The notes beneath the pieces are model-generated. The model did no database searches, was not told where the DNA came from, and saw only the letters and a list, made by a program, of their open reading frames with translations. A program made the translations under genes and the position numbers. From contig BDDD01000018.1 in the NCBI GenBank assembly GCA_001972305.1, forward strand, positions 558,001-622,000: 64,000 bases of DNA. Direction: 5' to 3'. Positions 9,481 to 63,459 of the stretch are shown here, one piece after another. Source of the stretch: Cephalotus follicularis. Lineage: Eukaryota > Streptophyta > Magnoliopsida > Oxalidales > Cephalotaceae. Each line of letters begins with the position of its first letter. Within the stretch, counting starts at the first letter, position 1.

Positions 9481-9484
<4 letters not shown>

Positions 9485-14392: not shown

Positions 14393-14613
14393 GTCGATGT
14401 CTTTTGTAAGGGTCGATGTCTTTTCTGGGTTTATAGTAAACACATCGACGTATTTTGGTACGGATCGATGCCCTTTCTGGGATAGCAGCTTACCTTTAAA
14501 TGCTATGAGAAAGACATTGATGTCTTTCACTAAACGCATCGATGTCTTTGTGCAAATTCGACCTGTAGATTTTGGGACCTAAACGCGTCGATGTCTTCAA
14601 GCAAAAGCGTCGA
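14393..14613. repeat. GTCGATGTC phased array in LTR F
   Basis: Cores start at 14393, 14412, 14444, 14464, 14516, 14538, 14587 and 14609. Pair steps are 19, 20, 22 and 22 bp, with one 32-bp step. The array lies about 95-315 bp upstream of the F TATA box. The units look like those of the unrelated copia element H. Confidence 0.75.
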
Positions 14614-14707
14614 CATCTTCTTCTGTAGCAGAAATAGAAAATTAGGTTTTTTCTGGATTTTTTGTAAATAGGGTTGTGTTATTTCCATTTTTAATCAATC
14701 TTAAATG

Positions 14708-14715
14708 TATAAATA
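14708..14715 (+). promoter_or_regulatory. Probable TATA box of LTR F
   Basis: TATAAATA in the context ATGTATAAATACG, directly downstream of the palindrome array. Confidence 0.55.
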
Positions 14716-15551
14716 CGTAAAGGCCAGCCAAAATCAACAAAGAGGCTAATAAAAACCCTATTTTCTTCTTTATCAATTCTAGTTTGTTTTACAATGTTTA
14801 ACAGCTAACTCTTCAAGGTTTTAGGGGAGAATAAAGCCTAGATTGTTATTGCTTCAATTCCATCAATAAAAATCCTTGAATATTTGATTTTTTATTCAAT
14901 TTATCTACCTTCACACACACTTTGTCTGTCTGATTAAAATCTACAAACATCTTATCGGTGAAGTTGAAAGTTGGTGAATAAATGGTGCTTAATTCAATCA
15001 ACGGAGTCCACTTATACGGTTTGTCACAATGAACACACCTTGTATAGACCTAGAATGTCTACTCATACGTCTTTTCGCCGATGCCGTACTTCGTATAGAC
15101 CTAGCATGACTGCTCATACGCCTTGCCATCACCGTCGCACTCCATATAGACCTAGCTGCCGATGGTTATCAAGATATGATCGTTCAATTACATGGAATTG
15201 GTCAATACAATCTATGGTGAGTTTCTACACCCTGAAACGCTTTTCAAATATATATTCTCGTCACTTTTATTCATTGCTTTGATTAATTTTACAATTGCAT
15301 TCTTTATTTCTTGGTGTTTCCAATTCAGTGTTCTTAATTCTTCTAGCCTTAAGTCTATGTTTTCAATTGTTTAATTTATTTTTGCATAATTAGAAGTAGT
15401 TTTTAATGGTTTTGCCTGAATTTTGCATACTTCGCCTAGGTCGGATAAATTATAACTAGTTTAACGTTTCCCTGTGTTCTACCCGTTACTGCATGATCCG
15501 TGCATTTGCGGCTATAAATTTTAAAAAATTCTTTTTAAGTGAACGAGTTTT

Positions 15552-15569
15552 TGGCGCCGTTGCCAGGGA
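15552..15569 (+). other. Primer-binding site of F (tRNA-Asp type)
   Basis: TGGCGCCGTTGCCAGGGA differs at one base from TGGCGCCGTTGCCGGGGA, the tRNA-Asp-complementary PBS known from Athila elements. Confidence 0.85.
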
Positions 15570-15853
15570 AACCTTTTAAATTAGTTTAAATTTATTTGAC
15601 TGATTCGTGGTATTTAATTGTGTTGCTTTGTTTTTGTGTTTGCGTTTCTTGTTATTTTGTTATCATTAGTTTAATTGGGAAGTTGCATAAGATTTAAACA
15701 ACAAACTCTTATAATCTTGGCATAAGCTTTAAACAAACCCTATTTTTGCTAAGTTAATTTTCTGCATAAGCTTTAATAATTTAGTTTAATTCAAAAAAAA
15801 AACCTGCGTTTTATCTTTAGTTAGAATTGCGTTAAGCTAGTTTTTTTATTTAT

Positions 15854-17317
15854 TTGTTTATGACTGAGTGGCTACGTGGCACAAATAACCGTCTCCAGCG
15901 AAACAATCAACAACCACAAATGGCAGACGAACGCCCACTCCAAACTTTGCGCGATAGATTCTATCCCACGAGGATAGCACAACCATCCTGTATCCTGTTG
16001 CCTGCACCTCAAGGGAATAATTTTGAGTTGAAATCTCAGTTCATTTGCATGCTTCCACACTTTCATGTTTTACCCAATGAGGATGCATATCTCTTCCTTC
16101 GTGAGTTCGAGGAGGTATGCGCCCTCATGAAACTTCAACAAATCTCGGATGACGCAATCAAATTGTGTTTCATAAATTTTTCTCTAAAAGATGGAGATAA
16201 AAAGTGACTCTATAGTCTCCCCAATAGTTCTATTTCTTCATGGGACCATTTCACCATTTCGTTCGTAACGAAATTCTTTCCGCTTCATAAAACCAATAAA
16301 CTTAGGAACGACATTCTCCAATTTCGTCAAAAACCCAATGAATCATTTTCTAGGTGTCTGGAACGTTTTAAGGATCTTCTCTTAGATTGTCCTCATCATG
16401 GTTTGAACATGTGGAATTTATGCCAAATCATATACAAAGGGATCGACTACCAGACCAAGCAATTGGTCGAATCAATGTGTCCCGAAGGGTTCACCTCGTA
16501 CACGGATGAAAACGAGGCATGGAATTTCATTTTAGATTTGGGCGAGCGAACTAGAGAGTGGGAGTCAACTCAAGTTTCCAAGAGAGCTTTTCCAAGTAAA
16601 TGGTACGTTATAGAAGGAGCAGTTGCTAAGGAGGCACAACTAGAAAGCCGCCTGACTAGACTAGAGTCGCTACGTAGGGGTTCCACACAAGTCAATCAAA
16701 TCAATCAAAGTACCCCTATGTGTTCTTGGTGCTAGTCACCAAATCATGTTTTTGAAGAATGTCAAATTTATATTGACAAACAATTTTCTCTTGAGAATGT
16801 GTCCACTATGAATCAATACAACCCATATAGTAACATTTACAATCCGGTTTGGAGAAATCATCCAAACTTCTCATGGAGTCAAGGGCAAAACATGCGAGGA
16901 CAATCAAGCTTTTTGGGGCAGCCTTCCAGCGTTGGTACCCCACCTTCACACTTTTGGGCACAACCTTTGAGCTTTCCTAGCCAGTCTGCACCACAGCAGA
17001 CCTTTCCAAGGTTTTCCCCAAATTCAAATAATATTCGAGCATCCTTCCCACCACAAAATCAATTCTCAAATCAACAAACATCAGGTTTGTCGAACCAAAG
17101 GGATGATACATCTAAGATTTCTTCACTAGAAAAGAGCGTAGAACTTCTTATGAGCACCATGATGACTTGTCAACATAACATGGAAAAACAAATTTCACAA
17201 CTAGCATCCTCTCTACATGACAGAGAAAAAGGAAAAATGCCCTCCCAACCTGACCCGAATCCTAGGACTGCCTTAAACCATTCCGCTCAAATCCATCAAC
17301 CATTGAATCCATAAAAT
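15854..17317 (+). pseudogene. Element F gag (Athila-like)
   Basis: Gag forms the capsid of virus-like particles. The frame holds ERPLQTLRDRFYPTRIAQPS, then MLPHFHVLPNEDAYLFLREF, the Athila-type capsid signature, then ISDDAIKLCFINFSLKDG. A stop at about 16205 breaks it; the same frame of sense continues (SSWDHFTISFVTKFFPLHKT, ERFKDLLLDCPHHGL) and 16403-16735 reads on to a degraded zinc-finger-like end (MCSWC). The 16799-17314 part is rich in Asn, Gln, Pro and Ser, a linker seen in Athila gag. At least three stops (about 16205, 16733, 17312) make it a pseudogene. Confidence 0.82.
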
Positions 17318-20043: not shown

Positions 20044-20188
20044 TGTAACGCCCAGGATTTTCATTTATGTGTAATATTACTTTTCCAATGTAATTTTACA
20101 CCCTGTGTTAATGAGAATCGTGTTTTTCCCTATTTTGTGTAGTGAGGTGTTGCAAGAAAGTGTGTTGTGGTGTGTCTTTGTGCAGGGG

Positions 20189-20310
20189 CAGCCGACTGCC
20201 ACATGACTGGACCCTTTGCTGAGCCGTGGCAGCCAGCTGCTGTGAGGAAGCAGCCGGCTGGTGGGAGTGTCGGCAGAAACAGCCGACTGCCAGGCCAAGG
20301 CAGTCGACTG
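20189..20310. repeat. Phased palindrome array, block 1 of C 5' LTR
   Basis: CAGCCGACTG-like units start at 20189, 20210 (degenerate), 20230, 20251, 20280 and 20301; steps are 21, 20, 21, 29 and 21 bp. The block lies 100-220 bp upstream of the TATA-like sequence. The 3' LTR has the same block at 27162-27283. Confidence 0.78.
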
Positions 20311-20410
20311 CCATGCGCCAGACAGCCCACGTGCTGTCTGCCTTAAGTGACAAAAGGTGGGGTGTTTTGGTTTTTATGGCAGATGGCAGAGGAGGGGCCG
20401 AGTCTTTCTC

Positions 20411-20418
20411 CATAAAAC
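20411..20418 (+). promoter_or_regulatory. TATA-like element of LTR C
   Basis: CATAAAAC, in the context CTCCATAAAACACAGCC, about 370 bp into the LTR and 240 bp before the donor-like site. The 3' LTR has it unchanged near 27384. Confidence 0.4.
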
Positions 20419-20657
20419 ACAGCCTTTCTCTCCTCTTTCTCCATCATCCTCTGTGTTTTCCAAGAGTGTTTGTGAGTTGAGAGTGAAATTGTGTGTGTGT
20501 TTTGTGTGGAACAAAGGGTTTGTGAGGAAACCGAAAGCTTGGAGGCTTGACAGTGGGAGTTCGGACCTGTGGAAATTTGCTGGACGTGTTGGGGTGGCAA
20601 GAGCTGCGGATTTAGACATAAAGAGGTGGATTGCAACTCCTAACTTAGAGTTCTAAG

Positions 20658-21980
20658 GTAGGGGGAAGTCGTTTTTGCAACGTAATTTCAATTGATAATG
20701 TTTTTGATGGAATAAAATGCATGTTTATGTTATATTGTGAGCTTGGAAAGTGTATGTGCATAAATGTGTTATTTTGGGCTGTGTTGGGTGTGTGATTGTG
20801 GCTGTTTTAGCTGCTGGTTTTTACACCTGCTACAGAATCCAGCCGACTGCCCGCATTGGGCAGTCGACTGCCTATGGGTCCAACCGACTTTTCTTGGGAG
20901 GCCAGTCGACTACCCATGTTCGTTTCCAAAAAATGTCTGCAGAGGTTGTGTAGTCGACTGTTGTAGGCCAGCAGCCGACTGTGGGGGTGTGGACAGTCGA
21001 CTGTCCTGAGGGCCAGCCGACTGTCGATTGCGGACAGCCGACTGTCTTGATAGACAGCCGACTGTCTGGTTGTGTAACCGACTGCCTGGGATTGGCGGCC
21101 GACTACTTTGAGGGGAACAACCGACTGCCAGTGGGAGGCAGCCGACTGTTGCGGGCCTGTTTTGCCCGTGAACATATATATGTATCGTGTATTGTGATAT
21201 TTTGCTTCGTGAAGCTTTATAAACTGTTTTGATGATTATGATTATTGAGTTTGAACTGTTATATCACCTTTCGGGAAGTGCATTGTAGTTTAATGAAAAT
21301 CATTACCTTGCACGAAAATATATGTTTTGAGAAAATATATACTTTCGAACCGTGAAAATGACTTCCAAAAATACCGTGAACTGAGTTTTGTGATATCGAG
21401 AACCGTGAACCGTGACATCGTGAAAATGAGTTTGTTTTCAGGTATTTTGTTTTATAAACTACTTGGAAACTGTTTTGAGCATCGAGATGATTGTGATTGT
21501 GATTGAGCCTGACTGTGATTGCTGATTGTGATTTTGATTGTGGCCATACTAGTTGCGTGGCGGAGATGCCAGCGATGACTAGTGGTCTGGTCGACTCAGG
21601 GGCCAGGAGTTGGCTGGGTGACTTACTGTATTGTGACCTGCTTCGTGCCGTCCGGAGTCGGGGCCGATGTCGGGATGTACGACGTTGGGGCCAGGAGTTG
21701 GCGACGCTCTTCGTACCCACCGTGAACCGTGAACCGAGTATTGTGTAGTCCTTTGGACTTGATTGAGACTGTGCATTGTGATATTGTGACATTGTGACAT
21801 CGTGATCACTGTGATATCGTGACATTGTGTTTTGGCATATGCATATCTATATTTATATATATGCATCGAGATATAGTATGTACTGCATCATGCTGCTTTC
21901 ATACTTTGGTTTTATTGATATTGTGTTGCCTTTATGACTTTGGTCGAGTGAGGACAAAGGCTAACCCCCTACTGTTGCAG
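20658..21980 (+). other. Putative LTR intron, element C
   Basis: Donor-like TCTAAG|GTAGGGGG and acceptor-like GGCTAAC...TGTTGCAG. The donor context aligns with AGGTACGGGAAGT in the related minus-strand solo LTR (near 38452). Inference only. Confidence 0.3.
20840..21148. repeat. Phased palindrome array, block 2 of C 5' LTR (14 units)
   Basis: Fourteen units of the type [CT]A[GA][TC]CGACT[GA] start at 20840, 20861, 20881, 20903, 20951, 20972, 20994, 21014, 21035, 21055, 21075, 21096, 21118 and 21139. Every step is 20-22 bp except one of 48, where a unit seems lost. The spacers of 10-12 bp are mostly unlike each other. The 3' LTR carries the same array at 27813-28121. Confidence 0.88.
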
Positions 21981-22359
21981 ATTGATGCTGCGTTTTGGAT
22001 ATCGCCGGGCATTGCCGTATCGGACTGTGATGTGACGGAGTTCTATGCTTTAAGTGCTTTGTTAAACAGTGTGGCAAACATGTTGTACTTTGGTTTATGT
22101 ACTAGTGTTTTGCTATTGTTGTTGTATCAACTTTGGATCATGCTCCGCTTGTGGGCTTTTTATCTATGTTTTACCGTGGATGTTGTGGGAATCATGCGGT
22201 ATGGGACGCATGGTTCCGTTTGTTTTCAGCTTATATATAAATGCTTACGCAAGATGATGTCTGTTTAAAAGTTTTAAATTTTATCGTTCTCTGTATAAGC
22301 TGGATATCTGTTAAATTGCCATGTTGTATGTTGTTAATGCAAGCGGGGTGTGACAGCAG

Positions 22360-22371
22360 TGATATCAGAGC
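22360..22371 (+). other. Primer-binding site of C (initiator tRNA-Met type)
   Basis: TGATATCAGAGC, one base from TGGTATCAGAGC, four bases after the LTR end. Confidence 0.8.
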
Positions 22372-22463
22372 ATATATCCATTTATATGCTTAGCTTGGAT
22401 ACTATCCTTGGCAATTAACATGTTTCCTCAAGAGGACTAATGACATCTTTCTTATAGGAACCT

Positions 22464-23633
22464 ATGGACGGTCGAAGAAGGTGCGGAAGGCATAGGCCCG
22501 TGAATGAGGATGTTCCAGAGGATGTGAATGTTGGCGGAGATCATAATGCTCCACCGGAGGCAGTGCCGAATGTGAGAGACCCCATGGACCGCATCGCCGA
22601 CTATATCCAGCAGTAGATAGCTGCCAATCAGCAACAGATGGCCGCTAATGCAGCCAATATGGAGGAGATACGGAGGTTATATGTTCAGGCTCAACCGATG
22701 GCTCCAGCTCAGGGTGCTCATGATGATGGTAGCCGGTTTGGCAGAAACCTAGAGAGGTTTATGAGACAGAACCCACCCAGTTTCAGCGGAGAGTTGGATG
22801 CTACCGCCGCTGAGAGATGGCTGCAGGACCTTGAGAAGATTTTCGAGGTGATGGAGTGTACAGACAGGCAGAAATTGAGGTTTGTCGTGTACCATTTATG
22901 GGGAGAGGCCACTCATTGGTGGGAGATGGTCAGTGCTAAGTGGGAGGATACTGGAGTTGTAGGCACCTGGGAGGGGTTCCAGGAGGAGTTTCTGGCAGCG
23001 TATGTGCCACGCATTGAGCGTGAGCGGAGAGAGACGGAGTTCTTGGAACTACGTCAGGGAGAGATGACTGTGGCTGAGTACCAGGCCAGGTTTGTTGAGC
23101 TTGCCAGACATTCAGCCTACTTGGTAGTAGATGAGGAGAAGAAGGTCCGAAGGTTCTTGAGGGCCTTGTGACCGAATCTTCGGTCACGGATCAAAGTGAT
23201 GGAGCTTGGTACCTTTGTGGAGGTTACCCAGAAAGCAAGGTTTATAGAGAGTGTGTTGAATGAGGACAGGGCAGAGAGGGCCCGAGCACAGCAGAGCAGG
23301 CAGACACAGAGTCAGTCTACACCAGCGTCGTCAAAGTGGCAAGGCAGTGGTTCCCCGACAAAGTCTCCGAGGAACAGGACTCAGCAGACAGCTTCATAGG
23401 GTGCTCCTAGTCAGGGGAGTGATGCTAAGACTGGGGTTTGTTACCACTGTGGTCGTGCAGGTCATCAGCAGAAGGATTGTTGGCTAAAGAAAGGGTTATG
23501 TCTGAGGTGTGGCACAGCGGGGCATTCCGTTAGGGATTGCCCGAGAGGAGCAGCGACAGCACCTACTGGGCCAGCTAGTGGTAGTGCTTCTGCTGCAGGG
23601 CCGTCATAGCGGAGAGACACCGGCAAGGGCATA
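22464..23633 (+). pseudogene. Element C gag
   Basis: The chosen start is the ATG of MDGRRRCGRHRP, the first after the PBS and in frame with all that follows. Gag shows FMRQNPPSFSGELDATAAER, WGEATHWWEMVSAKW and FQEEFLAAYVPRIERERRE, then two zinc knuckles: CYHCGRAGHQQKDC (about 23440-23481) and CLRCGTAGHSVRDC (about 23500-23541). In-frame stops are TAG 22614, TGA 23169, TAG 23397 and TAG 23607. Gag and pol share one frame, as in other Tekay-type elements. Confidence 0.92.
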
Positions 23634-26600
23634 GTGAAAGGTAGAGTTTTCGTTCTCACTCAGACAGAGGTTCCAGAGTCTACTTCTGTTGTGGGAGGTA
23701 CTGTGTATGTTTATGGTTTCTCTGCTAGAGCTTTGATGGATTCAGGAGCGTCACATTCTTTCATTGCTTCCCGTTTTGCATCATGTTTGGATGTGTCTCC
23801 TATTTGTATGCCTTTTGTTCTTGATGTGAGCACACCTTCTGGAGGTTCTATGTGTGCTGACTCGGTGTACCGAGGTTGTGAGCTTTCTGTTGCAGGTGTT
23901 TTGTTATGTGCAGACTTGATCGTGCTACCCCTTTATGACTTTGATGTTATCTTGGGTATGGACTGGTTGTCAGCCTACCATGCACAGCTGGACTGTTACA
24001 ACAAGGTGGTGGATCTTTGCTTTCCTGATGGGACTACCTTTCAGTTCCAGGGAGACAGAGGCTTCTCGATGTCGATCATATCCTTTATTCGTGCATCAAG
24101 GTATTTGGAAAAAGGGTGCAAAGGGTTCCTTGCGCATGTGGTTGACACAAGGAAGGAGAAGGGCAAAAGTCTGGAGGAGGTTCCTGTTGTAAGTGAGTTT
24201 CCAGATGTGTTTCCTCCAGATCTAGTGTCCTTACCACCGAGGAGGAATATGGAGTTTGTATTCGATCTTGTACCGGGTACGACTCCTGTTTCTAAGGCAC
24301 CTTACCATATGGCTCCTGCGGAGTTGCGAGAGTTGAAGTTGCAATTGCAAGACTTGATCGATAAGGGTTTTGTGCGACCCAGTGTTTCTCCTTGTGGTGC
24401 GCCCGTGCTTTTTGTTAAGAAGAAGGATGGGTCGATGAGGCTTTGCATCGACTACAGGATGTTGAACAATGTGACTATCAAGAACAAATATCCTCTTCCA
24501 CACATCGAGGATCTGTTTGACCAACTGCAAGGGTCGAGTGTGTTTTCTAAACTCGATCTGAAATCGGGATATCACCAGCTGAGGGTGAAGGAAGGAGATG
24601 TAGAGAAAACTGCTTTCCGAACGAGGTATGGTCACTATGAGTTTTTGGTTATGCCTTTCGGTGTCACCAATGCACCAGCAGCGTTCATGTCCCTGATGAA
24701 CGACGTGTTCCGACCGTATCTGGATCAGTTTGTGGTAGTGTTTATAGATGACATACTGGTGTTCTCAAGGAGTGAGGAAGAGCATGTCTATCATCTGAGG
24801 TTAGTTTTGCAGACTCTCCGAGAGCATAAGTTGTATGCTAAGTTTGGCAAGTGTGAGTTCTGGCTGGACCATGTGATCTTCCTGGGTCACATTGTGTCTG
24901 GAGAGGGTTTGGCGGTGGATCCGTCAAAGACAGAGGTGGTGCGAGATTGGCCACATCCGAGAAATGTGACAGAGGTACGTAGTTTCCTTGGTTTGGCAGG
25001 TTATTACCGGAGGTTTATCCATAACTTCTCGAGGATAGCAGTACCTTTGACAAGGCTGACTCAGAAGAAAACCTTGTTTGTTTGGGATGATGACTGTGAA
25101 GCCTGTTTCTATGATCTGAAGGATCGGCTGATCTCCTCTCCTGATCTGGCATTACCCGAGGGTAATGAGCGCTTTACAGTGTACAGTGATGCTTCGGGCA
25201 AGGGCCTGGGTTGCGTGTTGATGCAACGAGGCAGGGTGATCGCTTATGCTTCGTGGAAGCTGAAGCCATATGAGGAGAACTATCCAACTCATGATCTCGA
25301 GCTAGCAGCTATCGTTTTTGCTCTTCAGAAATGGAGACATTACTTGTATGGAGCACAGTTTGAGATCTTTACCGATCACAAGAGCCTGAGGTACTTGTTC
25401 AGTCAGGATGATTTGAATATGAGGCAGCGTCGTTGGGTTGAGTTCTTTAATGACTACGACTACAGTATTCAGTATCATCCAGGGAAGGCGAATGTTGTCG
25501 CGGATGCCCTAAGCCATAAGGCCATGGTTGCCAATGCCATGGTGTCTCAGTGGAAGTTGTTGGAGGACTTCAAGGAATGGTCTCCGTTTAATCAGTCACC
25601 GGGGATCTTTTTAGCTGACATGCGGGTAGAGCCAGTGTTACTGCATCACATCAAAGATGCACAGCCACATGATCCGGAGTTGCAGCGGATTCGAGAGAAT
25701 CTGGATTCGGAGTCTGATTTTAGAGTACATGATGATGGTATTATGAGATATCGGGGACGAGTGTGTCTTCTGAATGAACCGAGACTGAAGGATGAGCTAC
25801 TCTGCCGAGCTCATAAATCCCTGTATAGTATTCATCCTGGTAGCACCAAGATGTATCAAGACATGAAGAAGTGTTACTGGTGGCCTGGCATTAAGCGGGA
25901 GATCACCGAGTATGTGGCAAGGTGTTTGACTTGCCAGACGGTTAAGGCCGAGCACCAGAGACCGGCAGGTTTGCTGCAACCCTTGCCAATTCCAGAGTGG
26001 AAGTGGGAGCATGTTACGATGGATTTTGTTTCGGGTTTTCCTTTGACTCGAAACCGCCATAATGCAGTGTGGGTAATTGTGGATCGACTCACGAAGTGAG
26101 CTCACTTTTTGCCTACTCATGTTTCTGACTCTGCGAGCAAGTTGGCTCAGTTGTATGTGAAGGAGATTGTGAGGCTACACGGTGTTCCTGTAAGTATAGT
26201 CTATGAGAGAGACTCGATATTCACTTCCAACTTTTGGAGGAGGTTCCAGAAAGCGTTTGGGACGAAGCTGAACTTGAGCACAACTTTCCACCCACATACG
26301 GATGGCCAGTCAGAGCGTACTATCCAGACCCTGGAGGATATGCTCCGAGCTTGTATTGTTGATTTTGCTGGTACTTGGGAGGACCATATTCCCTTGATAG
26401 AGTTTTCATATAATAACAGCTATCATTCCAGTATCGGCATGGCACCGTTTGAGGCTTTGTATGGGAGGAAGTGTAGGTCCCCTGTGTGTTGGGACGAGGT
26501 TGGTGAGCGACCCTTGTTGGGCTCAGACCTGGTGGAGGAGACTTCTGAGAAAGTCAAATTCATAAAGGAGAAGCTGCTTGCTGCTCAGAGCCGACAGAAG

Positions 26601-26971
26601 AGCTGTGTTGATAGTGTAAAGAGAAGACCTTTAACCTTCGACGTCCCTTTGAGATTCTGGAGAGAGTTGGGGAGGTGGCTTACCAGCTTGCTTTTCCTCC
26701 TGCACTGTCAAGTGTGCATGATGTCTTTCATGTATCCATGCTGAGGGGATATGTCCGAGATCCTTCGCATGTTCTGGATTTTGCTTCAGTTCCGGTGCGA
26801 GATGACCTATCTTGCGAGGAGTTACCTGTGCGGATCCTGGATTGGAAGACGCAGGTGCTGAGGAACCGAACCATTCCTATGGTAAAGGTTCAGTGGCAGT
26901 TTCACCGTCCTGAAGAGGCAACTTGGGAACGTGAAGAGGAGATGAGGGAGCGTTACTCTCACTTGTTCTAG
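23634..26971 (+). pseudogene. Element C pol (protease, RT, RNase H, integrase, chromodomain-like tail)
   Basis: Domains in order: protease with [11 protein letters not shown] (about 23730); RT with [22 protein letters not shown] and catalytic FIDDILVFS (about 24745); RNase H with [15 protein letters not shown] and TDHKSLRYL; integrase with the zinc-binding [12 protein letters not shown]...CLTCQ, then MDFVSG, D in RDSIF, and E in [14 protein letters not shown]; and a C-terminal VFHVSML and chromodomain-like WQFHRPEEATWE. A TGA at 26097 splits the integrase core. Near 26640 about 75-80 bp are missing compared with B, shifting the frame; the tail resumes at 26675 and ends at 26971. Catalytic residues are otherwise kept. 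Confidence 0.93.
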
Positions 26972-27003
26972 TACCGCCTTTATTTCGGGGATGAAATTCC
27001 TTG

Positions 27004-27016
27004 AATGAGGGGTGGA
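27004..27016 (+). other. Polypurine tract of C
   Basis: AATGAGGGGTGGA directly before the 3' LTR start TGTAACGCC. Confidence 0.8.
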
Positions 27017-29321
27017 TGTAACGCCCAGGATTTTCATTTATGGGTAATATTACTTTTCCAATGTAATTTTACACCTCGTGTTAATGAGAATCGTGTTTTT
27101 CCCTTTTTTGTGTAGTGAAATGTTGCAAGAAAGTGTGTTGTGGTGTGTTTTTGTGCAGGGGCAGCCGACTGCCACATGACTGGACCCTCTGCTGAGGCTT
27201 GGCAGCCAGCTGCTGTGAGGAAGCAGCCGGCTGGTGGGAGTATCGACAGAAACAGCCGACTGCCAGGCCAAGGCAGTCGACTGCCATGCGCCAGACAGCC
27301 CACGTGTTGTCTGCCTTAAGTGACAAAAGGTGGGGTGTTTTGGTTCTTATGGCAGATGGCAGAGGAGGGGCCGGGTCTTTCTCCATAAAACACAGCCTTT
27401 CTCTCCTCTTTCTCCATCATCCTCTGTGTTTTCCAAGAGTGTTTGTGAGTTGAGAGTGAAATTGTGTGTGTGTTTTGTGTGGAACAAAGGGTTTCTGAGG
27501 AAACCGAAAGCTTGGAGGCTTGACAGTGGGAGTTCAGACCTGTGGAAGGTTGCTGGACGTGTTGGGGTTGCAAGAGCTTCGGATTTAGACATAAAGAGGT
27601 GGATTGCAACTCCTAACTTAGAGTTCTAAGGTAGAGGGAAGTCGTTTTTGCAACGTAATTTCAATTGATAATGTTTTTGATGGAATAAAATACATGTTTA
27701 TGTTATATTGTGAGCTTGGAACGTGTATGTGCATAAATGTGTTATTTTGGGCTGTGTTGGGTGTGTGATTGTGGTTGTTTTAGCTGCTGGTTTTTACACC
27801 TGATACAGAATCAAGCCGACTGCCCGCATTGGGCAGTCGACTGCCTATGGGTCCAACCGACTATTCTTGGGAGGCCAGTCGACTACCCATGTTCATTTAC
27901 AAAAAATGTCTGCAGAGGTTGTGTAGTCGACTGATGTAGGACAGCAGCCGACTGTGGGGGTGTGGACAGCCGACTGTCCTGAGGACCAGCCGACTGTCGA
28001 GTGCGGGCAGCCAACTGTCTTGATAGACAGTCGACTGTCTGGTTGTATAGCCGACTGCCCTGGATTGGCAGCCGACTACTTTGAGGGGAACAGCCGACTG
28101 CCAGTGGGAGGCAGCCGACTGTTGGGGGCCTGTTTTGCCCGTGAACATATATATGCATCGTGTATTGTGATGTTTTGCTTCGTGAAGCTTTATAAACTGT
28201 TTTGAAAATTATGATTATTGAGTTTGAACTGTTATATCACCTTTCGGGAAGTGCATTGTAGTTTAATGAAAATCATTACTTTACACGAAAATATATGTTT
28301 TGAGAAAATATATACTTTCGAACCGTGAAAATGACTTCCAAAAATACCGTGAACTGAGTTTTGTGATATCGAGAACCGTGAAACGTGACATAGTGAAAAT
28401 GAGTTTGTTTTCAGGTATTTTGTTTTATAAACTACTTGGAAACTGTTTTGAGCATCGAGATGATTGTGATTGTGATTGAGCCTGACTGTGATTGCTGATT
28501 TTGATTTTGATTATGGCCGTACTAGTTGCGTGGCGGAGATGCCAGCGATGACTAGTGGTCTGGTCGACTCTGGGGCCAGGAGTTGGCTGGGTGACTTACT
28601 GTATTGTGACCTGCTTCGTGCCGTCTGGAGTCGGGGCCGATCTCGGGATGTACGACGTTGGGGCCAGGAGTTGGCGACGCTCTTCATACCCACCGTGAAC
28701 CGAGTATTGTGTAGTCCTTTGGACTTGATTGAGACCGTGCATTGTGATATTGTGACATTGTGACATCGTGATCACTGTGATATCGTGACATCGTGTTTTG
28801 GCATATGCATATCTATATTTATATATATGCATCGAGATATAGTATGTACTGCATCATGCTGCTTTCATACTTTGGTTTTATTGATATTGTGTTGCTTTTA
28901 TGACTTTGGCCGAGTGAGGACAAAGGCTAACCCCCTACTATTGCAGATTGATGCTGCGTTTTGGATATCACTGGGCATTGCCGTATCGGACTGTGATGTG
29001 ACGGAGTTCTATGCTTTAAGTGCTTTGTTAAGCAGTGTGGCGAACATGTTCTACTTTTGTTTATGTACTAATGTTTTGCTATTGTTGTTGTATCAACTTT
29101 GGATCATGCTCCGCTTGTGGGATTTTTATCTATGTTTTACCGTGGATGTTGTGGGAATCATTCGGTATGGGACGCATGGTTCCGTTTTTGTTCAGCTTAT
29201 ATATAAATGCTTTCACAAGATGATGTCTGTTTAAAAGTTTTAAATTTTATCGTTCTCTGTATAAGCTGGATATCTGTTAAATTGTCATGTTGTATTTTGT
29301 TAATGCAAGCGGGGTGTGACA
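27017..29321 (+). repeat. Element C 3' LTR
   Basis: Near-copy of 20044-22355 with the same termini. Palindrome block 1 is at 27162-27283 and block 2 at 27813-28121, with unit positions kept. It is followed by the right copy of the target duplication GCGGA (29322-29326). Confidence 0.95.
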
Positions 29322-31370: not shown

Positions 31371-31651
31371 ATGGTCATACGGGGGACCTCTGCAATGGGC
31401 AGTGCTATCCCCAATATGTTCACACCATTCAACGAAAATTATGGAAGGCCAACGACGGGACAGCCTTATGTCCGACCGCTTATGGGCTTATTATTTCACA
31501 AGTTGGAGGAATTTGGTCTCATCAAATTTTATATTTTACCAAAATCCGTTTTAGATAAATTTAATTATCGTCCGATCCATTTGGACGACTTATCATGCTT
31601 GACGTGTTTGGATTGTTTGCCAAAAGCAAACATTAATATCATGCAACCTAT

Positions 31652-34445: not shown

Positions 34446-34599
34446 TAGCCAACTGGTTGTTTTGTATAGAACACAGCCGACTGTCACAGGGGAACAGTCG
34501 ACTGGTTGGTTCGTACAGGCTCCAACCGACTGTCACAGGGGAACAGTCGACTGGAAGGTAAGCGGTGATAGCCGACTGCCATTTAAAAAGAGTCGACTG
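34446..34599. repeat. Palindrome array, block 1 of B 5' LTR
   Basis: Units start at 34446, 34474, 34495, 34523, 34544, 34569 and 34590. Three pairs are spaced 21 bp, and pairs are separated by 25-28 bp. One pair with its flank (about 49 bp) is absent from the 3' LTR, where the array is shorter (about 44230-44340). Confidence 0.78.
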
Positions 34600-39069: not shown

Positions 39070-39324
39070 TTTTTGTTGTACTCACTAAGTAATCACACAT
39101 ATAAAAACCTTAATCGATTAGAATCAACATAACAACCAGGAAATTCAACTTTCTCATTAACTTAATAACAAGATTACATTTGGAATTCAAATATTACAAC
39201 GTGCGAAAATCCCGAGCGTTACATATGTTGTGCTTCCGCAAAAGTTTTAAGTTTTATGTGTTTTTGGATAATACTGGATTTATGTTGATATCATATATGT
39301 TGTTAAAATGGGGTGTGACAAACA

Positions 39325-48103: not shown

Positions 48104-48258
48104 CGTTAAGCGGTGACGCCTTCGTCTTAACCGTCGACGCCTTAGCGTTGTTATTTCATTGTTTCTTTAGATGCGTAACACGTCGATGCTTATGCATTTA
48201 ACATCGACGCTTTTGTATAAAAAGGGCTTAAGCGTTGACGCTTTTGAGTTACCGTTAA
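48104..48258. repeat. Palindrome array, block 1 of LTR G
   Basis: Cores start at 48113, 48133, 48182, 48203, 48234 and 48254 (GTGACGCC, GTCGACGC, GTCGATGC, ATCGACGC, GTTGACGC, GTTAACGC); pair steps are 20, 21 and 20 bp. A weaker core is at 48104. The block surrounds the TATA box. Confidence 0.7.
48216..48223 (+). promoter_or_regulatory. Probable TATA box of LTR G
   Basis: TATAAAAA in TTTTGTATAAAAAGGGC, between array units. Confidence 0.5.
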
Positions 48259-48823
48259 CGCTTTAGTCAATTTTCCTTATTTTTCTTGGACGGTGGCTTA
48301 GTTTTGGAAAGGGGATTCTTTCCATAATCCGGTTATCTTATTTTCCTTTTATGTTTGCCGCGTTTTCTGTTCATAAAGAAGGTTTTACATCAACACGTTT
48401 TTACCATCATTAAGATCACGATTTTCATCCTTTTAAAAATGGCTACCTGCACATTTTTTCAAACCATCAAAAAATCCATTTTCTTATGCCATTTTCATCA
48501 CCTTTTTGCACATCATCTTGAGGTACGTCATGTTACTGGTTTTGTTATTGTCATATGTCATTAGTTTTGTTGAATATAAAGCCATTAGATTATTCAAAAC
48601 TTGTTGTTGATACATAAAAACTGTCTTGAATAATGCAATGCCAGAAAACATGTTTTAAAAATTGTCATTGTTATATGTAACCTGTAATCTGTAATTGAAA
48701 TGTTTTAATGGTATTTTCAGTCATATAAGTCATGTTTTAGAACCTGCATACTACTGTTTTATTGATTTATGTCCAAGGAAACTGGATTTCTGCAACTATT
48801 TTAATGTCCTTCTCGTATTAAGC

Positions 48824-49012
48824 GTCGACTGTTTTCGTTCTTTGCCGACGCTTATGTCTTAATCATCGATGCTTTGTTTTGAGCGTCGACGCTTTTATCG
48901 TAAGTTATCATGTTCTGCGCTTGTGCTAACGTTTTGTTTTAAAGCACCAACACTATGTCTTCAGTGCCAACGCTTTTATTTTAAGCATTGAAGCTTTCGT
49001 CCTGAACGTCGA
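48824..49012. repeat. Phased palindrome array, block 2 of LTR G (10 units)
   Basis: Core pentamers start at 48824, 48844, 48865, 48885, 48905, 48925, 48946, 48966, 48987 and 49008, so every step is 20 or 21 bp. Strong units read GCGTCGACTG, GCCGACGCTT, CATCGATGC, GCGTCGACGC and ACGTCGACGC. Units at 48905, 48925, 48946 and 48966 are degenerate. Confidence 0.82.
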
Positions 49013-52471: not shown

Positions 52472-53037
52472 GTCGACTTCTTTGTGAAAGGCGTCGATGT
52501 CTTTTCAGTTGGTAGCCGTTAGAAGTTGTTGAACTAGTCGTTCCAGGTTTCCCGGGTGTTGTTCACTTGAATAGGCGTCGACTTCTTTTTGAAGGCGCGA
52601 TGTCTTTTCTGGGAAATCTCCAGAATATGAGTCTTTGAACATCACATCGTCTTCTTCTTTGGAGTCGATGCATTTTCTGGGAATTTGCAGGTTGCTCTGG
52701 AAATGGCGTCGATCTCTATTGAAAGACGTCGATGTCTTTTGAGTTGACATCGATGTCTTTGATGTAAGGATCGATGTCTTAAATTGCAATTTCATACAGT
52801 AGCTTCTGGCTTAGAAAACGTCTAAAAATGTCGATGTTATCTTGAAAGTAGTCGATGTCATCTTGAAAGTAGTCGACGTCTTTTGGAAGTAGTCGATGTC
52901 TTTTGGTACGGACGTCGATGCTATTACTGGAAGGACGATGTCTTCTTTGTAATTGATCCTGCACTAAAGATGTCGATGTTATTTTGAAGGAGTCGACTTC
53001 TTTCGTACGGACGTCGATGGTTTTCGTTGATAGTCGA
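52472..53037. repeat. GTCGATGTC phased array in H1 LTR
   Basis: Cores start at 52472, 52493, 52577, 52596, 52646, 52664, 52708, 52728, 52749, 52770, then 52830, 52851, 52872, 52892, 52914, 52934, 52952, 52972, 52992, 53013 and 53033. The last eleven have a mean step of 20.3 bp. The typical unit is AAGACGTCGATGTCTT, almost a palindrome. The array lies within the U3, upstream of the TATA box. Confidence 0.85.
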
Positions 53038-53160: not shown

Positions 53161-53180
53161 ATCTCCCCCTTTTTGATGAT
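53161..53180 (-). other. Polypurine tract of H1
   Basis: The minus strand reads CATCAAAAAGGGGGAGAT next to the LTR start TGTTGACG, a form common in Sirevirus-like elements. Confidence 0.85.
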
Positions 53181-53846: not shown

Positions 53847-55151
53847 TCAAGATTCAGGAGGAGTGGAGATATCGGATCCGGATTCATCGCCCGAAGTTTC
53901 TTCACATCGATCAATCGTCTTGGATTCGGCAAGCTTCCGTTCCATCCTTTTGAGACGCCTCTTTGTGACTTTTAAATCATAGAAGATGGTGTCATCAATG
54001 TGTCGGAAGTCCGAATGAATATTCTTATGATCCCCCTCTAATCTGTTTAGCCGTGAGTTGATTTCTTTAAACAAGGCTTCCATGGCAGCAAATTTTGATT
54101 GCATGAACTCCATCATCTGGTCATAATCAGAAGTAGATGAAGTTCCTTGAGATTGAGGCTGGGCTGGTGCAGCTTGTTGTTGAGTTTCCCAAGGAGGATT
54201 CTCTTCTTGTTCTTCAATGCCAATCCTTGGTCCTTGATCCACTTTAGGCACATATGTCCAAATCCCTTATTGTTTCTTCCACCCCATTCTATTTAATGTG
54301 CTCTTGTTGTATGTATCTTCCTTCTTCAACTTCGTTGAAATCTCTCCTTCAAGCGGAATATGACAATGTAGGAAGACAAGGGTAAGAATGGATCCGTGAG
54401 GGAGTACGGATTTCTTCTGTGAAAATGCTCTTACCATAGTCTTGAGCATTAGGAGAGGAAAACAGAATTCGATTTTACACAGGATGCACCACATAATGAA
54501 AACTTGCATCCTAGACAACTTGGCATACCCTCCACCGGTGGGTAGAATTTGATGAACTATGAGATGGTGGAGAAGCCTATGGTCTACTGACAATCGATTA
54601 GTGGTCAGAGCCATGTTTGGATGAATATTTGGATCATTGGGATACAAAATCGATAGAATATGGTTAGGGTGAAAACCCTCAACCTCCGGCCATTTTTTAT
54701 GTTCAAAGACATAAATACCGGTGTGTGGAATATGAAGGATAGAAGCTAGAATCCTAGCATCTAGATAAATCCTTTGGCCTTTAACAGATGAGGAGATTGC
54801 AAATTCCTCATTTTGAGCCGAAACCATTTTTAGGTTAGAATAAAATTCTTTAACCAATTTTATGTAAAATGGGTTAGAAATTTGAACTAAGGGAAGAAGA
54901 TGTAGGTCATCTAACCAGGAAACGAAGGAGAATTCGGAAGAACAGAAATCAAAATCAATGTTTCTGCCTCCCATGACTCGTTTTTCAACAAAGGATATGG
55001 TTCGAATGGGAATGTGTTCTTCGGATGAGGAATCCGAATGAGAAGATACAGAGGAAGATTCCCTAAGCTCTAATCTCTGCTTCTTAGCAGATTTCTTAGG
55101 CTGAGAAGAGGAGGCAACCTTCTTTTTGGCGGTTTGCTTAGTCCTAGGCAT
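53847..55151 (-). pseudogene. H1 extra ORF downstream of pol
   Basis: A protein of about 434 codons broken by one TAA (about 54267-54269). I chose ATG 55151 (MPRTKQTAKKK) because H2 has the same start at 59373; the open frame upstream lies in palindrome spacer. Order: a Lys-rich N-terminus resembling the histone H3 tail, a Ser/acid stretch, SFVEKRVMGGRNIDFDFCSS, a globular part (LVKEFYSNLKMVSAQNEEFA; GQRIYLDARILASILHIPH; RLSVDHRLLHHLIVHQILP), and after the stop an acidic, Gln-rich, probably coiled-coil C-terminus (KVTKRRLKRMERKLAESK). It recalls plant 'putative plant transposon protein' domains and env-like ORFs of Sireviruses. I saw no convincing signal peptide or membrane segment. Function unknown. 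Confidence 0.72.
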
Positions 55152-55357
55152 TTTGACAAACTGGTAGAGTGCACAGAGAGAAGACACAAGCAATGACAAA
55201 TCTGGAAAGATTGGACACGACGAATGGAGTTTATGTGGATAAAAAAAGATTAGAGAGATGTTTTCGAGCAAAAAGGAACAATTTTTGAAGAAAAATAACG
55301 AGAGTGGAAATTTTTGAAAAATTACAGAGAAAGAGGAAAATGCAGAATGAGCATGAG

Positions 55358-55630
55358 GTCGACTTTTTATGAAGAAGTCGAGTTTCTGAAGAAAAGACGT
55401 CGACTTTATTCTAAAAGAAGTCGACGCGATCTTTAAAAAAGAGCTGTAAAAACGGTGCGTTTTAAAAGGCATCGACGCATTTGAAAATAAGTCGATGTGT
55501 TTTAGAGAAACACATAGGGATCGACGTTTTTCAAAAGAAGTCGACGGCATTTTCATAAGATACAAGTTTTTCCAGAAAAGAAGTCGACTCTGTTTTGTAA
55601 AGCATAAAAAATTCCAGAAAAGGAGTCGAC
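55358..55630. repeat. GTCGAC array in the H1 spacer between RNase H and the extra ORF
   Basis: Cores start at 55358, 55377, 55399, 55420, 55471, 55491, 55520, 55540, 55583 and 55625; steps are 19-22, 29, 42-43 or 51 bp. It lies between the RNase H stop (55740) and the extra ORF start (55151), upstream of that ORF. Confidence 0.75.
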
Positions 55631-55739
55631 GTTTTTCAAAGCAGAACAGAAAATCAAGCCAAAAACAGAACAAATAACAAAAAAGATCATCACATCAAAT
55701 ATTCATTCGATCAATCATATCATTCAAACATAATACATA

Positions 55740-56964
55740 TCATTCAAGTTCACACAAACCTAATTCTCTTCTAAACTTAGAAAAAGAATTCTCATCTAAG
55801 GGTTTGGTGAAGATATCCGCCACTTGTTTTTCGGTGGGAATATACTCTAACATAATGTCACCACATTCTACATGTTCTCTTAAGAAATGATATCTAATGT
55901 CAATGTGTTTTGTCCTAGAGTGATGGACAGGGTTCTTAGAAGGGCAAATACTACTAGTATTATCACACTTAATAGATACATCCTTAACATAAATGCCAAA
56001 ATCAACCAATTGTTTCTTTTGCCAAAGAATTTGAGCACAACAACTACCTACTGCTATATATTCAGCTTCGGTGGTGGGTAAAGCTACTGAATTTTGCTTC
56101 TTGCTAAACCAAGATACTAGCATGCTTCCTAGGTATTGGCATGAACCACTAGTACTCTTGCGGTCTACTTTATAACCACCAAAATCGGCATCCGAGTAAG
56201 AATGTAAATCAAAACAAGAATCTCGGGAATACCATAAGCCTAAGGTAGGTGTGTATGCAAGATATTTGAAAATCCTTTTTACAGAAAATAAATGGGATTC
56301 TTTAGGATTGGATTGAAAGCGGGCACACAAGCATACACTAAATAAAATATCGGGCCTACTTACGGTTAAGTATAATAAAGAACCTATCATACTTCTATAA
56401 AGCTTTTGATCGATACATTTACCTTGTTCATCTTTGTCAAGCTTTGTAGAGGTACTCATCGGTGTCTTGCTCGTTTTAGCATCCTCCATCCCAAACTTCT
56501 TGAGAATATCCCTTGTATATTTCGTTTGGTTGATGAAGATCCCATTTTTATTTTGTGTCACTTGTAGTCCAAGAAAATAGTTGAGCTCTCCCATTAAACT
56601 CATTTCAAATTCAGCTTTCATTGTATCTGAAAATTCCTTGCATAAAAAATCATTATTAGATCCAAAAATAATATCATCAACATAAATTTGAACGATAAGC
56701 AAATCATTACCTTTGGATTTTGTAAAAAGTGTGATATCAACATTACCACGTTTAAAATCATTTTCAATCAAAAATTTTGTCAATCGCTCATACCAAGCAC
56801 GAGGGGCTTGTTTGAGTCCATATAAAGCTTTGTTTAATTTGAAAACGTGATTTGGAAAGTGAGGGTCCTCAAAACCTTGAGGTTGTTCAAAATATACCTC
56901 TTCTTTGATAAAACCATTTAAAAATGCGCTTTTTATATCCATTTGATATAATTTGAAATTAAGT
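55740..56964 (-). pseudogene. H1 reverse transcriptase (5' truncated) and RNase H
   Basis: Starts inside RT at YQMDIKSAFLNGFIKEEVYF, then KALYGLKQAPRAWYERL, the catalytic IYVDDIIFGS and RNase H with SYSDADFGGYKVDRKST, TTEAEYIAVGSCCAQILW, KNPVHHSRTKHIDIRYHFLR and the end VADIFTKPLDENSFSKFRRE. The frame is intact for about 408 codons. It is fused in frame to LTR sequence upstream (56965-57231), so no normal start exists. The motifs are Sirevirus-like. Confidence 0.92.
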
Positions 56965-57231
56965 CGATGTCTTTTGGTACGGACGTCGATGCTATTACTG
57001 GAAGGACGATGTCTTCTTCGTAATTGATCCTGCACTAAAGACGTCGATGTTATTTTGAAGGAGTCGACTTCTTTCGTACCGACGTCGATGGTTTTCTTTG
57101 ATAGTGGACTTCTTCTTCTGCAGATGGTATATTGCTTTGATTTTGAACTTGTAATTCCTTGCACATCAAGTAAACTTGTTAAATGCAAATATGTTATCAT
57201 CAAAACAAGGATTGAGACTAAATCGTCAACA
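56962..57231 (-). repeat. H LTR fragment fused to RT
   Basis: The first about 270 bp of an H LTR (TGTTGACGATTTAG at 57231 downwards), matching 52896-53160 with about 6 differences. It ends in the palindrome array at GTCGATGTC and passes straight into RT codons near 56960. Confidence 0.88.
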
Positions 57232-57232
57232 A

Positions 57233-57667
57233 TAAGTGATATCAATTGAGTTATCTTCTAAAATAAGCAATGTTCATAAAGGAAAGTTCCATTTGAATGT
57301 GCTATTGAGCTTTTATCTAAATGTAGCTCTATCTCCAATGCTTTTGAGCTATTGAGCTCTATCTCCCCATAACTATCTCCCTATAACATAAGCAATATTA
57401 ATGGAGCTAGGATTGAGACAAAATCGTTAACAATCTCCCCCTTTTTGATGATGACAAAAATTTGCTCAAAAATGGCATAAATATAAAACATAAGTGATAT
57501 CAATTGAGTTAACTCCTAAAATAAGCAATGTTCATAAAGGAAAGTTCCATTTGAATGTGCTATTGAGCTTTTATCTCAATGTAGCTCTATCTCCAATGCT
57601 TTTGAGCTATTGAGCTCTATCTCCCCATAACTATCTCCCCATAACATAAGCAATATTAATGGAGCTA
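57233..57667 (-). repeat. Duplicated 3' UTR segment with a 23-bp LTR stub
   Basis: 177 bp at 57233-57409 recur at 57491-57667 (offset 258 bp) with few differences. Between them are a 23-bp LTR start (57410-57432, TGTTAACGATTTTGTC in minus sense) and a PPT region (57433-57490). So the 3' UTR appears on both sides of an LTR stub. Confidence 0.88.
57433..57452 (-). other. Polypurine tract of H2
   Basis: Same AAAAAGGGGGAGAT form as in H1, next to TGTTAACG. The stretch 57668-58035 is AT-rich 3' UTR without a gene. Confidence 0.82.
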
Positions 57668-59373: not shown

Positions 59374-59565
59374 TTTGACAAACAGTTTATGAGCACAACC
59401 GAGATGAATAGAGAATGAAAAAAAATAACTAGATTGGAAGACCAAAAGACGATTTTGAGGTCGAATGAAGATGGAGTAGATGTCCTTAGCACGATTTTAA
59501 AAATTTTGGAGAGACAAAAAAATTTTTCGAGATGCTCTGTGAGAGAAGGGTGAGAGATATGAGCA

Positions 59566-59815
59566 TGAAGTCGACGTTTTTATGAAAAAGTCGATACCAG
59601 GTAAAAGACATCGACATGATTCCAAAGACGTCGACGTGTTCTTTAAAAAGAACGAAAGGCATCGATCCAGAAAACGCTGCGTTTTAAAAAGCATCGACGC
59701 GTTACAAAGGAGTCGACGTGTTTTTAAAGAAACTTAAAGAAATCGACATATTATAAAAGAGATCGACATTTTTGCACAATACATCAATGTTTTTAGAAAA
59801 GAAGTCGACGTTATT
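59566..59815. repeat. GTCGAC array in the H2 spacer
   Basis: Cores start at 59570, 59590, 59610, 59630, 59661, 59693, 59712, 59742, 59762, 59783 and 59804. Steps are 20, 20, 20, 31, 32, 19, 30, 20, 21 and 21 bp, all near whole helical turns (two or three). Confidence 0.82.
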
Positions 59816-62664: not shown

Positions 62665-62708
62665 GAAGGATCTTTGTAACCTCTAACAATTAAGAAATAA
62701 GGTTAACC

Positions 62709-62720
62709 TCTCTGATACCA
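62709..62720 (-). other. Primer-binding site of H2
   Basis: The minus strand reads TGGTATCAGAGA two bases after the LTR end, initiator tRNA-Met type. Confidence 0.88.
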
Positions 62721-62796
62721 ATTGAAATAATCACTCTTGCAATTTGTTGTATCTCTTGTTATGTTTTTCTATCTTCCTGAAGGTTTGAATCTTCCT

Positions 62797-62804
62797 TTAT
62801 ATAA
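62797..62804 (-). promoter_or_regulatory. Probable TATA box of LTR H2
   Basis: The minus strand reads TTTATATAAAGG, downstream of the array in element orientation. Confidence 0.5.
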
Positions 62805-62901
62805 ACAAAAAAGTCTTTGTAGCCATTGCATAAATCTTGGGAATTTAAGATATCAAAATGTGTTGATGCAACTCTATTTTTGTGTCTGCTGAGATAAAGA
62901 C

Positions 62902-63459
62902 GTCGATGTCTTTTGAAAGGCGTCGATGTCTTTGACTGTTACGAGCCATTGCAAGTGGGTTTACTAGCCGTTGCTTAGTTCCCGGGTCAAACAATTTGAA
63001 AAGACGTCGATGTCTTTTATAGGCGTCGATGTCTTTTCTGGGAATATGTCCAGGCTTTTGAAGTTATGAGCATCACATCGACCTCTTCTTCAAGGATCGA
63101 TGTCTTTTCTGGCTTTGGCAGATGGGTCTAGAAAGACGTCGATGTCTTATAAAAGGGATCGATGTCTTTTGTTGGACGTCGATGTCTTCTGAAACAAGGA
63201 TTGATGTCTTCACTCAAATTTGACCTATAACTTTTGTAGCTTAAGACGTCGATGTCTTCTTGAAAGGGATCGATGTCTTTCCTTTGGACGTTGATGTCTT
63301 TGACCATAATGATCGATGTCTTGGCTCAAATTCGAAATGTAACTTTGGTGCACTAAGCACGTCGATGTCTTTCTTGAAAGGGATCGATGTTTTTTCTCCA
63401 GAAGTGGCATGTAACTTTAATAGCTCTAAGACGTTTATGTCTTTTGCAATAGGGATCGA
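62902..63459. repeat. GTCGATGTC phased array in H2 LTR
   Basis: Cores start at 62902, 62922, 63006, 63025, 63077, 63096, 63138, 63158, 63178, 63200, 63248, 63269, 63290, 63312, 63361, 63383, 63433 and 63455. Within groups the steps are 19-22 bp. Confidence 0.82.

Follow-up and report, generated by a model that had tools for sequence, protein, structure and literature searches.

Long terminal repeat (LTR) retrotransposons of Cephalotus follicularis carry arrays of short palindromes centred on TCGA that follow each other in step with the DNA helix, and such arrays are present in both the Ty1/copia and the Ty3/gypsy superfamily. They were analysed in a stretch of 64,000 nucleotides, hereafter called the window (C18:558001-622000 of an assembly of 1.577 Gb in 9,746 contigs), which is made up of nested LTR retrotransposons of the two superfamilies, and in 200 kb from two other contigs that were taken irrespective of arrays (the unselected 200 kb). 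In our judgement, which derives from sequence comparison, the chances are slightly better than even that these are enhancer-like arrays of dyad sites for a putative family of host DNA-binding factors.

The phase is evident from the spacing of the words themselves. TCGA occurs 249 times in the window against 175.7 +/- 12.0 in 100 dinucleotide shuffles, and at lags of 19, 20, 21 and 22 bp there are 8, 19, 12 and 5 TCGA pairs where about one per lag is expected; the unselected 200 kb gave 6, 15, 18 and 11 against 1.9 expected, with troughs on either side, so that the phased arrays described in the original prediction are real. Of all 16 four-mer palindromes, only TCGA shows a strong period of about 10.2-10.4 bp in the unselected 200 kb, and GTCGA/TCGAC is the most phased five-mer there and in the window alike. 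With a minimum of two two-turn steps as the definition of a cluster, 28 clusters were counted in C40, C150 and the window combined, with 115 two-turn and 6 off-phase steps, and the single-palindrome version of this rule yielded 19 clusters for TCGA against 0-7 for 12 other four-mer palindromes. Mean spacings in the three samples correspond to 10.2-10.5 bp per turn at two, three, four and six turns, and to 10.0-10.1 at five. The Tekay-like arrays, which had been called TCGA-centred, are phased as claimed, but they mix TCGA with CCGAC, and the phased core is better given as YCGAC. Of the 16 NNCGAC words, GTCGAC, GCCGAC and ATCGAC are clearly phased in both samples, GGCGAC and TTCGAC show a weaker phase, and ACCGAC is phased in the window and not in the unselected sample.

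The core is flanked by arms of three classes: AAGACR-TCGA-YGTCTT (class I), CAG-TCGA-CTG with many CAGCCGACTG variants (class II), and AAGCG-TCGA-CGCTT (class III). Class I is carried by the Athila-like LTR F, by the Sirevirus-like LTRs H1 and H2 and, by similarity, by a TGTAACACCC-type gypsy LTR (C150 95329-95485). Class II is found in the gypsy LTRs A, B, C and G, in a gypsy LTR pair of C150 (1673-4356 / 8104-10814, pol 54% to that of A/B), and also in copia, namely in the element C1a 25731-32831 and a related C1b LTR pair. Class III occurs in Sirevirus-like LTRs of C150 and C40, often with an altered centre, and as GGCGTYRACGCC in a solo LTR of the window (about 5533-8026); it was not seen in any proven gypsy element. 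Classes I and II thus each span both superfamilies, and all three classes occur among copia elements with an extra open reading frame (ORF). In H1, 14 TCGA words stand in one run, with arms palindromic or nearly so, so that the element reaches the minimum of 8 palindromic copies that goes with the RM boxes of Sireviruses. The putative copia solo LTR at about 5533-8026, whose insertion is supported by its splitting of a repeat, agrees with the original description in that 9 of its 12 steps come close to whole turns (a count made with no null model), but TCGA forms the centre of 3 of its 13 sites, the other 10 having TCAA, TTGA or TTAA. In those 10 sites the central CpG is altered and the arm CpGs are often kept, the opposite of a uniform CpG decay.

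The assignment to superfamilies is based on coding domains and priming sites. The H1/H2 elements, on the minus strand, encode Retrotran_gag_2 and RVT_2 domains, which places them in Ty1/copia, and they show the marks of a Sirevirus, that is, a copia pol, multiple AGGGGGAG polypurine tracts and a TATCAGAG-type primer-binding site (PBS), the last as a PBS-like word with one mismatch; A/B, C, F and G, which are gypsy or gypsy-type, do not show this combination. In the F element, RNase H domains (PF17917/PF17919) and the exact PBS word TGGCGCCGTTGCC, which we take to be that of tRNA-Asp, correspond to the gypsy-type pol and tRNA-Asp PBS of Athila. The lineage names Tekay, Athila and Sirevirus are provisional ones, assumed from such sequence marks. 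The families had been described as unrelated; this holds insofar as copia and gypsy both carry arrays, but A/B and G, with pol genes 69% identical as DNA, are two related gypsy families. The array region of F has at least 58 matches in the genome (40 of 2,701 first-pass candidates were scored), two of which, on C827 and C746, are followed at 1.0-1.5 kb by a correctly oriented gag match, as judged by eye over 150 gag places. A class I array at C1a 21437-21596 was considered as a second Athila and dropped, since a minus-strand gypsy-type LTR with a TGTAACACCC start encloses it, the array being some 1.5 kb into this LTR.

A genome-wide scan returned 114,725 TCGA triplets at steps of 19-22 bp, against 1,276 at 24-27, 8,917 at 29-32 and 2,142 at 34-37 bp, whereas triplets of the control word AGCT numbered 14,026, 3,065, 3,612 and 3,569, respectively. 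The excess at three turns, together with the low counts at 2.5 and 3.5 turns, points to DNA phase and not to a fixed 21-bp unit. The AGCT control, too, is higher at 19-22 than at 24-27 bp. A family seen for example at C9:74937-75092 has regular TCGA steps of 29-32 bp within a long conserved unit and is apparently a three-turn version of the array. As doublets at 19-22 bp, AGTCGACT was counted 108,824 times (341 for the reversed pattern) and CGTCGACG 17,526 times (31 reversed), against 5 for AGACGTCT, a palindrome of the same composition (13 reversed); the class I pattern with slightly different limits gave 20,996, both strands summed, and 89 reversed. These counts pool many copies per family, which are not independent, and they are not counts of origins. 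A set of viral contigs scanned with class II and class I doublets gave 10 and 6 stretches, none with a comparable TCGA array; one of these stretches, L039, is a dense repeat from a GC-rich contig.

A further line of evidence is the conservation of the core between separate insertions. Ten array pairs were compared, each array being used once, and words present in either copy were scored as identical or not; the arrays were picked by TCGA in the query copy, and the alignments covered at least 250 bp, most of them reaching into the flanks. Phased TCGA words were identical in 59 of 76 cases, compared with 60 of 228 for other CpG words of the same spans, 713 of 1,873 for non-CpG words inside the spans (1,527 of 3,575 outside) and 1 of 7 for out-of-phase TCGA words. 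Over all pairs, which overlap, the differing positions amounted to 9/606 for T and A of the core, 27/606 for its CG, 289/2,564 for the arms, 802/4,683 for the spacers, 796/6,874 outside the array and 289/1,181 for other CpGs, which makes the spacers the fastest changing part of the array. Between LTRs of one element, identical at first and then drifting, there was no such difference (core T/A 4/161, spacer 32/1,307; one comparison uses a nearby third LTR). Since the core is held between insertions and drifts like the spacer within elements, selection seems to keep it for as long as a lineage is active and to cease thereafter.

The same comparisons bear on the view that the arrays matter as foldable RNA or DNA, their self-complementary units forming hairpins that feed small RNAs and silencing. 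Such a role has been proposed for LTRs of maize Sireviruses, according to PMC10760457, and the units here are indeed near their own reverse complement. The arms, which would be the stems, nevertheless differ far more often than T and A of the core in the overlapping pairs given above. Among 329 arm pairs in which both copies keep TCGA, 157 were paired and unchanged, 116 unpaired in both copies, 53 gained or lost by a single change, 2 kept by a double (compensatory) change and 1 of another kind; selection on stems predicts more double changes, so there is no sign of selected hairpins in these pairs. The three-turn steps and the trough at 2.5 turns also favour DNA phase over a small-RNA length of 21-22 nt, and array CpGs decay less than other CpGs. 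We therefore regard the hairpin explanation as quite unlikely.

This lower decay was seen in ten LTR pairs chosen for their arrays, where C-to-T type differences affected 7 of 88 array CpGs against 63 of 288 other CpGs (Mantel-Haenszel odds ratio 0.33, p 0.009) and 16 of 88 CpGs within 60 bp (p 0.08). In 17 LTR pairs, the phased-core CpGs differed at 6 of 80 sites, compared with 88 of 345 near the core (p 0.0003) and 7 of 58 TCGA or core sites outside two-turn steps (p 0.39). It may reflect cover by a protein or low germline methylation, and sequence context may be part of it; as proof of hypomethylation it was rejected, because the effect weakens in the matched comparisons (p 0.39 and p 0.08), and it is used here as supporting evidence only. 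The original prediction had offered a host silencer as one of two explanations, and a silencing or insulating protein that reads the cores in all lineages, at sites kept for some other need, would account for the same core in several lineages and for the very many sites in one genome. However, conservation between insertions would be expected only where the element benefits from the site, and elements would gain by losing sites at which they are silenced; the fewer transitions at array CpGs suggest less germline methylation, with context as a partial cause, the contrast with sites outside two-turn steps not being significant. For these reasons a silencer appears distinctly improbable.

Position relative to promoters was examined in 20 arrays by looking for TATA-like words within 260 bp after or before each of them (C1a 21437-21596 was scored in plus orientation despite its minus-strand LTR). 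Such a word lies 78-104 bp past the last core in F, H1, H2 and the Sirevirus-like LTRs of C150 and C40, five LTRs in all. The claim that arrays lie upstream of a TATA-like box is borne out in F, H1 and H2, but not for block 1 of the Tekay-like LTRs, after which no TATA-like word was found within 260 bp; the same is true of block 1 of G, the class II copia LTRs and four internal arrays. The evidence for promoter placement is suggestive for Athila-like and Sirevirus-like LTRs only, in which it also matches the description by Bousios et al. (2010).

Most of the arrays are in LTRs, as had been stated, but those at 55359-55629 and 59527-59808 stand at the start of an ORF that follows pol and precedes the 3' LTR. 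The intact copy of this ORF, with a PF20167 (Transposase_32) match, shares up to 97% identity with a Cephalotus follicularis protein across 62% of the ORF, and all of the best 120 of 328 matches come from this species. In four element copies, the two of the window plus C1a 9803-10128 and C1a 29596-29652, an internal array is placed at the start of the extra ORF or immediately upstream of it. The class II copia element of C1a has the same CAG-TCGA-CTG units in its LTRs (25918-26034 and 31740-31835) and at the start of the extra ORF (29596-29652), and it is the only element in which a common arm class for LTR and internal array was upheld; as a general rule this was rejected. The extra ORF of the Sirevirus-like elements, with an array at its start, might be taken to encode the factor that binds the arrays, in the manner of VANC, the anti-silencing proteins of VANDAL transposons. 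By local BLASTP the ORF of class II and III elements is 26-34% identical to the class I copy of the window, while for the two class III elements the identity in reverse transcriptase (RT) amounts to 73-77%, a divergence that would suit such a factor. We nevertheless consider an element-encoded factor very improbable: the two ORFs of at least 200 aa in gypsy A/B gave no PF20167 match despite dense arrays, the arm classes cross lineages, and a single-sequence fold model of the PF20167 ORF reached a predicted local distance difference test (pLDDT) score of 37.

Arrays common to several lineages could also have spread among families by recombination or template switching, so that DNA was exchanged and not repeatedly captured. 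Class I arms and some trailing words are common to F and the Sirevirus-like LTRs, and their alignment beyond the cores is above that of shuffles in which cores were kept and spacers shuffled (z 2.5-4.9, and up to 6.0 against a C40 gypsy-type array). Within the Sirevirus-like family, however, z is 13-14, and F gives its higher raw scores against H1 and H2 when inverted relative to the LTR, z being about equal in both orientations. Given this modest excess, a recent swap of the module between F and the Sirevirus-like arrays was rejected, and convergent capture, the other explanation of the original prediction, is favoured over such a whole-array swap. Exchange in general, an older one included, seems unlikely to us, although it is compatible with a host factor that reads the arrays.

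If a host factor family is involved, each unit would be a two-fold symmetric site, with TCGA or more loosely YCGAC as its core, for a sequence-specific protein, and the symmetry suggests a dimer rather than a binder of the CBF/DREB type. Members of the family would differ in their preferred arms, corresponding to classes I, II and III. Sites two, three, four or more helical turns apart would bring bound dimers onto one face of the DNA, where they may cooperate at the LTR promoter and also, if a copia element has an ORF behind pol, at a second, internal promoter; the lineages would have acquired their arrays separately. The idea of one shared host input is supported by the same core and phase in several lineages and by the conserved core, but "one" is too strong a word for three arm classes.

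Several observations weigh against this host-factor interpretation. TATA-like words follow 8 and precede 7 of the 20 arrays, so that placement overall is not significant, distance to the TATA box was rejected as a general rule, and a fixed promoter distance holds at best for Athila-like and some Sirevirus-like LTRs. The internal units of class I elements share with the LTR units the TCGA core and outer A/T-rich bases and have arms of their own; our confidence in a dyad activator is reduced because of these internal arms and the TATA placement. The arms diverge as much as the sequence outside, leaving only the core clearly held, and in one pair (C150 59858 / 34467) the result is opposite, with 2 of 4 cores identical against 47 of 59 other words. 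Choice of arrays by TCGA, combined with a register slip of one unit, would be able to mimic core conservation. In class III, by contrast, the arms look better kept than the centre, which a factor reading TCGA leaves unexplained: the Sirevirus-like LTRs at L021 1460-1860 and L018 6990-7370 keep AAGCG-NNNN-CGCTT arms around four variable bases. Prevalence is also limited. Nine LTR pairs were found in the unselected 200 kb: a clear array is present in the pair at C150 1673 only, the arrays of two Sirevirus-like pairs are degenerate ones of class III, and in the remaining six pairs no array was recognised. The genome counts, being of non-independent copies, overstate the number of origins. The arrays are thus a property of several families, not of all. 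A very young element (C40 35103-52503), with 4.2-kb LTRs that are 99.5% identical, showed no recognisable phased array. The unselected 200 kb contains 13 array clusters, of which about 11 lie near a motif typical of LTR starts or near sequence that resembles a defined LTR, and those at C150 57909 and 83481 lie near neither; as these motifs are frequent, the test is a weak one.

A broader hypothesis, which we advance tentatively and on balance doubt, is that a host family of dyad-binding transcription factors is the common promoter input of much of the LTR load of this genome. Copia and gypsy elements would each have evolved arrays along one helical face and switched between arm classes, cores would be selected while the elements are active, and some 100,000 phased sites could titrate or rewire the factor. 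The shared core, phase and conservation across copia and gypsy pose an experimental question, namely which protein binds TCGA dyads about 20.7 bp apart, and it can be tested whether retrotransposon families that differ in their arms answer to separate members of a single factor family. The answer would reveal to what extent unrelated transposons have converged on a single host input.

The features of the window are collected in Table 1. Besides these, a further class II array with TCGA and CCGA cores was observed at 1855-1960, in sequence 80% similar to C1c 8788, and class III units of the AAGCGTCGACGCTT type occur at 48134-48260 and 48820-48890, in two groups about 600 bp apart.

Table 1. Arrays, TATA-like words, elements and element parts in the window (positions in the window; H1 and H2 are Sirevirus-like)
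Feature	Position	Strand	Remarks
Class III-like sites in solo LTR at about 5533-8026	6221-6710		13 GGCGTYRACGCC-like sites
Class I array, U3 of Athila-like 5' LTR F	14394-14613	+	steps 19,32,20 and 19,30,22
TATA-like word of F	14708-14716	+	95 bp past last core
PBS word TGGCGCCGTTGCC of F element, presumed tRNA-Asp type	15552-15564	+	exact match
Complete Ty3/gypsy (Tekay-like) element A/B	20044-29321	+	target duplication GCGGA on both sides
LTR A	20044-22355	+	5' part of Tekay-like element
LTR A, block 1	20187-20310	+	sparse CAGYCGACTG units, read from sequence
LTR A, block 2, class II array	20843-21145	+	15 cores, 11 two-turn steps, CAGTCGACTG and CAGCCGACTG mixed
LTR B	27017-29321	+	other LTR of Tekay-like element
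LTR B, block 2, class II array	27816-28118	+	14 cores, 10 two-turn steps
LTR G	starts 34272	+	gypsy element related to A/B, interrupted by solo LTR C
LTR G, block 1, class II array	34477-34596	+	
LTR G, block 2, class II array	35331-35478	+	
Solo gypsy-type LTR C, inserted in LTR G	36685-39223	-	TATGT on both sides
Class II array in solo LTR C	37959-38173	-	
Class II array in 3' LTR of G	44264-44334	+	
TATA-like word of H1	near 52374	-	99 bp past array
Class I array, U3 of LTR H1	52473-53037	-	
Polypurine tract AGGGGGAGA adjoining LTR H1	53162-53170	-	second exact copy at 53473, one-mismatch copy at 53528
ORF with PF20167 (Transposase_32), Sirevirus-like element	54267-55694	-	between pol and 3' LTR (env-like position)
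TCGA array at 5' end of PF20167 ORF	55359-55629	-	arms like AAAAGAAG-TCGA-CGTTTTT, unlike class I
LTR fragment	56952-57233	-	97% to H1
Class I array in LTR fragment	56964-57088	-	
TCGA array at 5' end of second, broken PF20167-type ORF	59527-59808	-	
PBS-like word near LTR H2	62709-62720	-	one mismatch; alone not significant
TATA-like word of H2	near 62803	-	93 bp past array
Class I array, U3 of LTR H2	62896-63459	-	

Among known systems, the core recalls the CBF/DREB element of AP2/ERF proteins, for which Xue is said to have described in 2002 the barley CBF1 motif (G/a)(C/t)CGAC. Three of the four words of this motif are phased in both of our samples and ACCGAC in the window only; the CBF/DREB element, however, is a single asymmetric site, its proteins binding as monomers, whereas the arms here are palindromic in three classes. 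Short repeated activator boxes are also present in the U3 of the plant copia elements Tnt1 and Tto1. The arrays resemble these in being repeated short boxes in U3, but they share a core across superfamilies, while the Tnt1 and Tto1 boxes, to our knowledge, have few copies, are confined to one family each and have no core common across superfamilies.

The closest likeness is to the RM boxes, the palindromes of Sirevirus LTRs that Bousios et al. (2010, PMC2829016) described upstream of the TATA box and again ahead of the env-like gene. In that paper the core is stated as CGG-CCG, the boxes are called Sirevirus-specific on a comparison of copia elements, and no common factor is named for them; 2 of 13 motifs are TCGA-centred, CGGTCGACCG of Vitis and ACAATCGATTGT of Tnd-1, the latter being named as an exception to the core. 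As with these boxes, many CpG-containing palindrome copies occupy the upper half of the LTR, with a motif that varies by family, and extra copies are found before the env-like gene, although here their arms match those of the LTR in the class II element alone. For the short distance to a TATA box the picture is mixed: a TATA-like word follows at 78-104 bp in F, H1, H2 and the C150 and C40 LTRs, and over the 20 arrays such words lie after 8 and before 7. Unlike the published boxes, the present arrays have a TCGA/YCGAC core and occur also in the gypsy LTRs A, B, C, G and F and in the gypsy LTR pair of C150. The passages of PMC2829016 on spacing, helical arrangement and gypsy contain no analysis of phase. 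In maize Sireviruses, palindrome clusters are located in an LTR cis-region that is structured and rich in small RNAs (Bousios et al. 2016, as reported in PMC10760457); clusters of palindromes are common to both cases, but the arm data here show no selection for pairing. The titles and opening lines of abstracts on LTR palindromes and arrays contain no report of phase or of gypsy arrays, and apart from Bousios et al. 2010 and the paper on maize structure none of them treats such arrays, most subscription papers being outside our reach. The Sirevirus-like arrays are new sequence variants of the published palindromes and the gypsy arrays extend the kind; to the published picture the present analysis adds these gypsy arrays, the helical phase and a test for selection.

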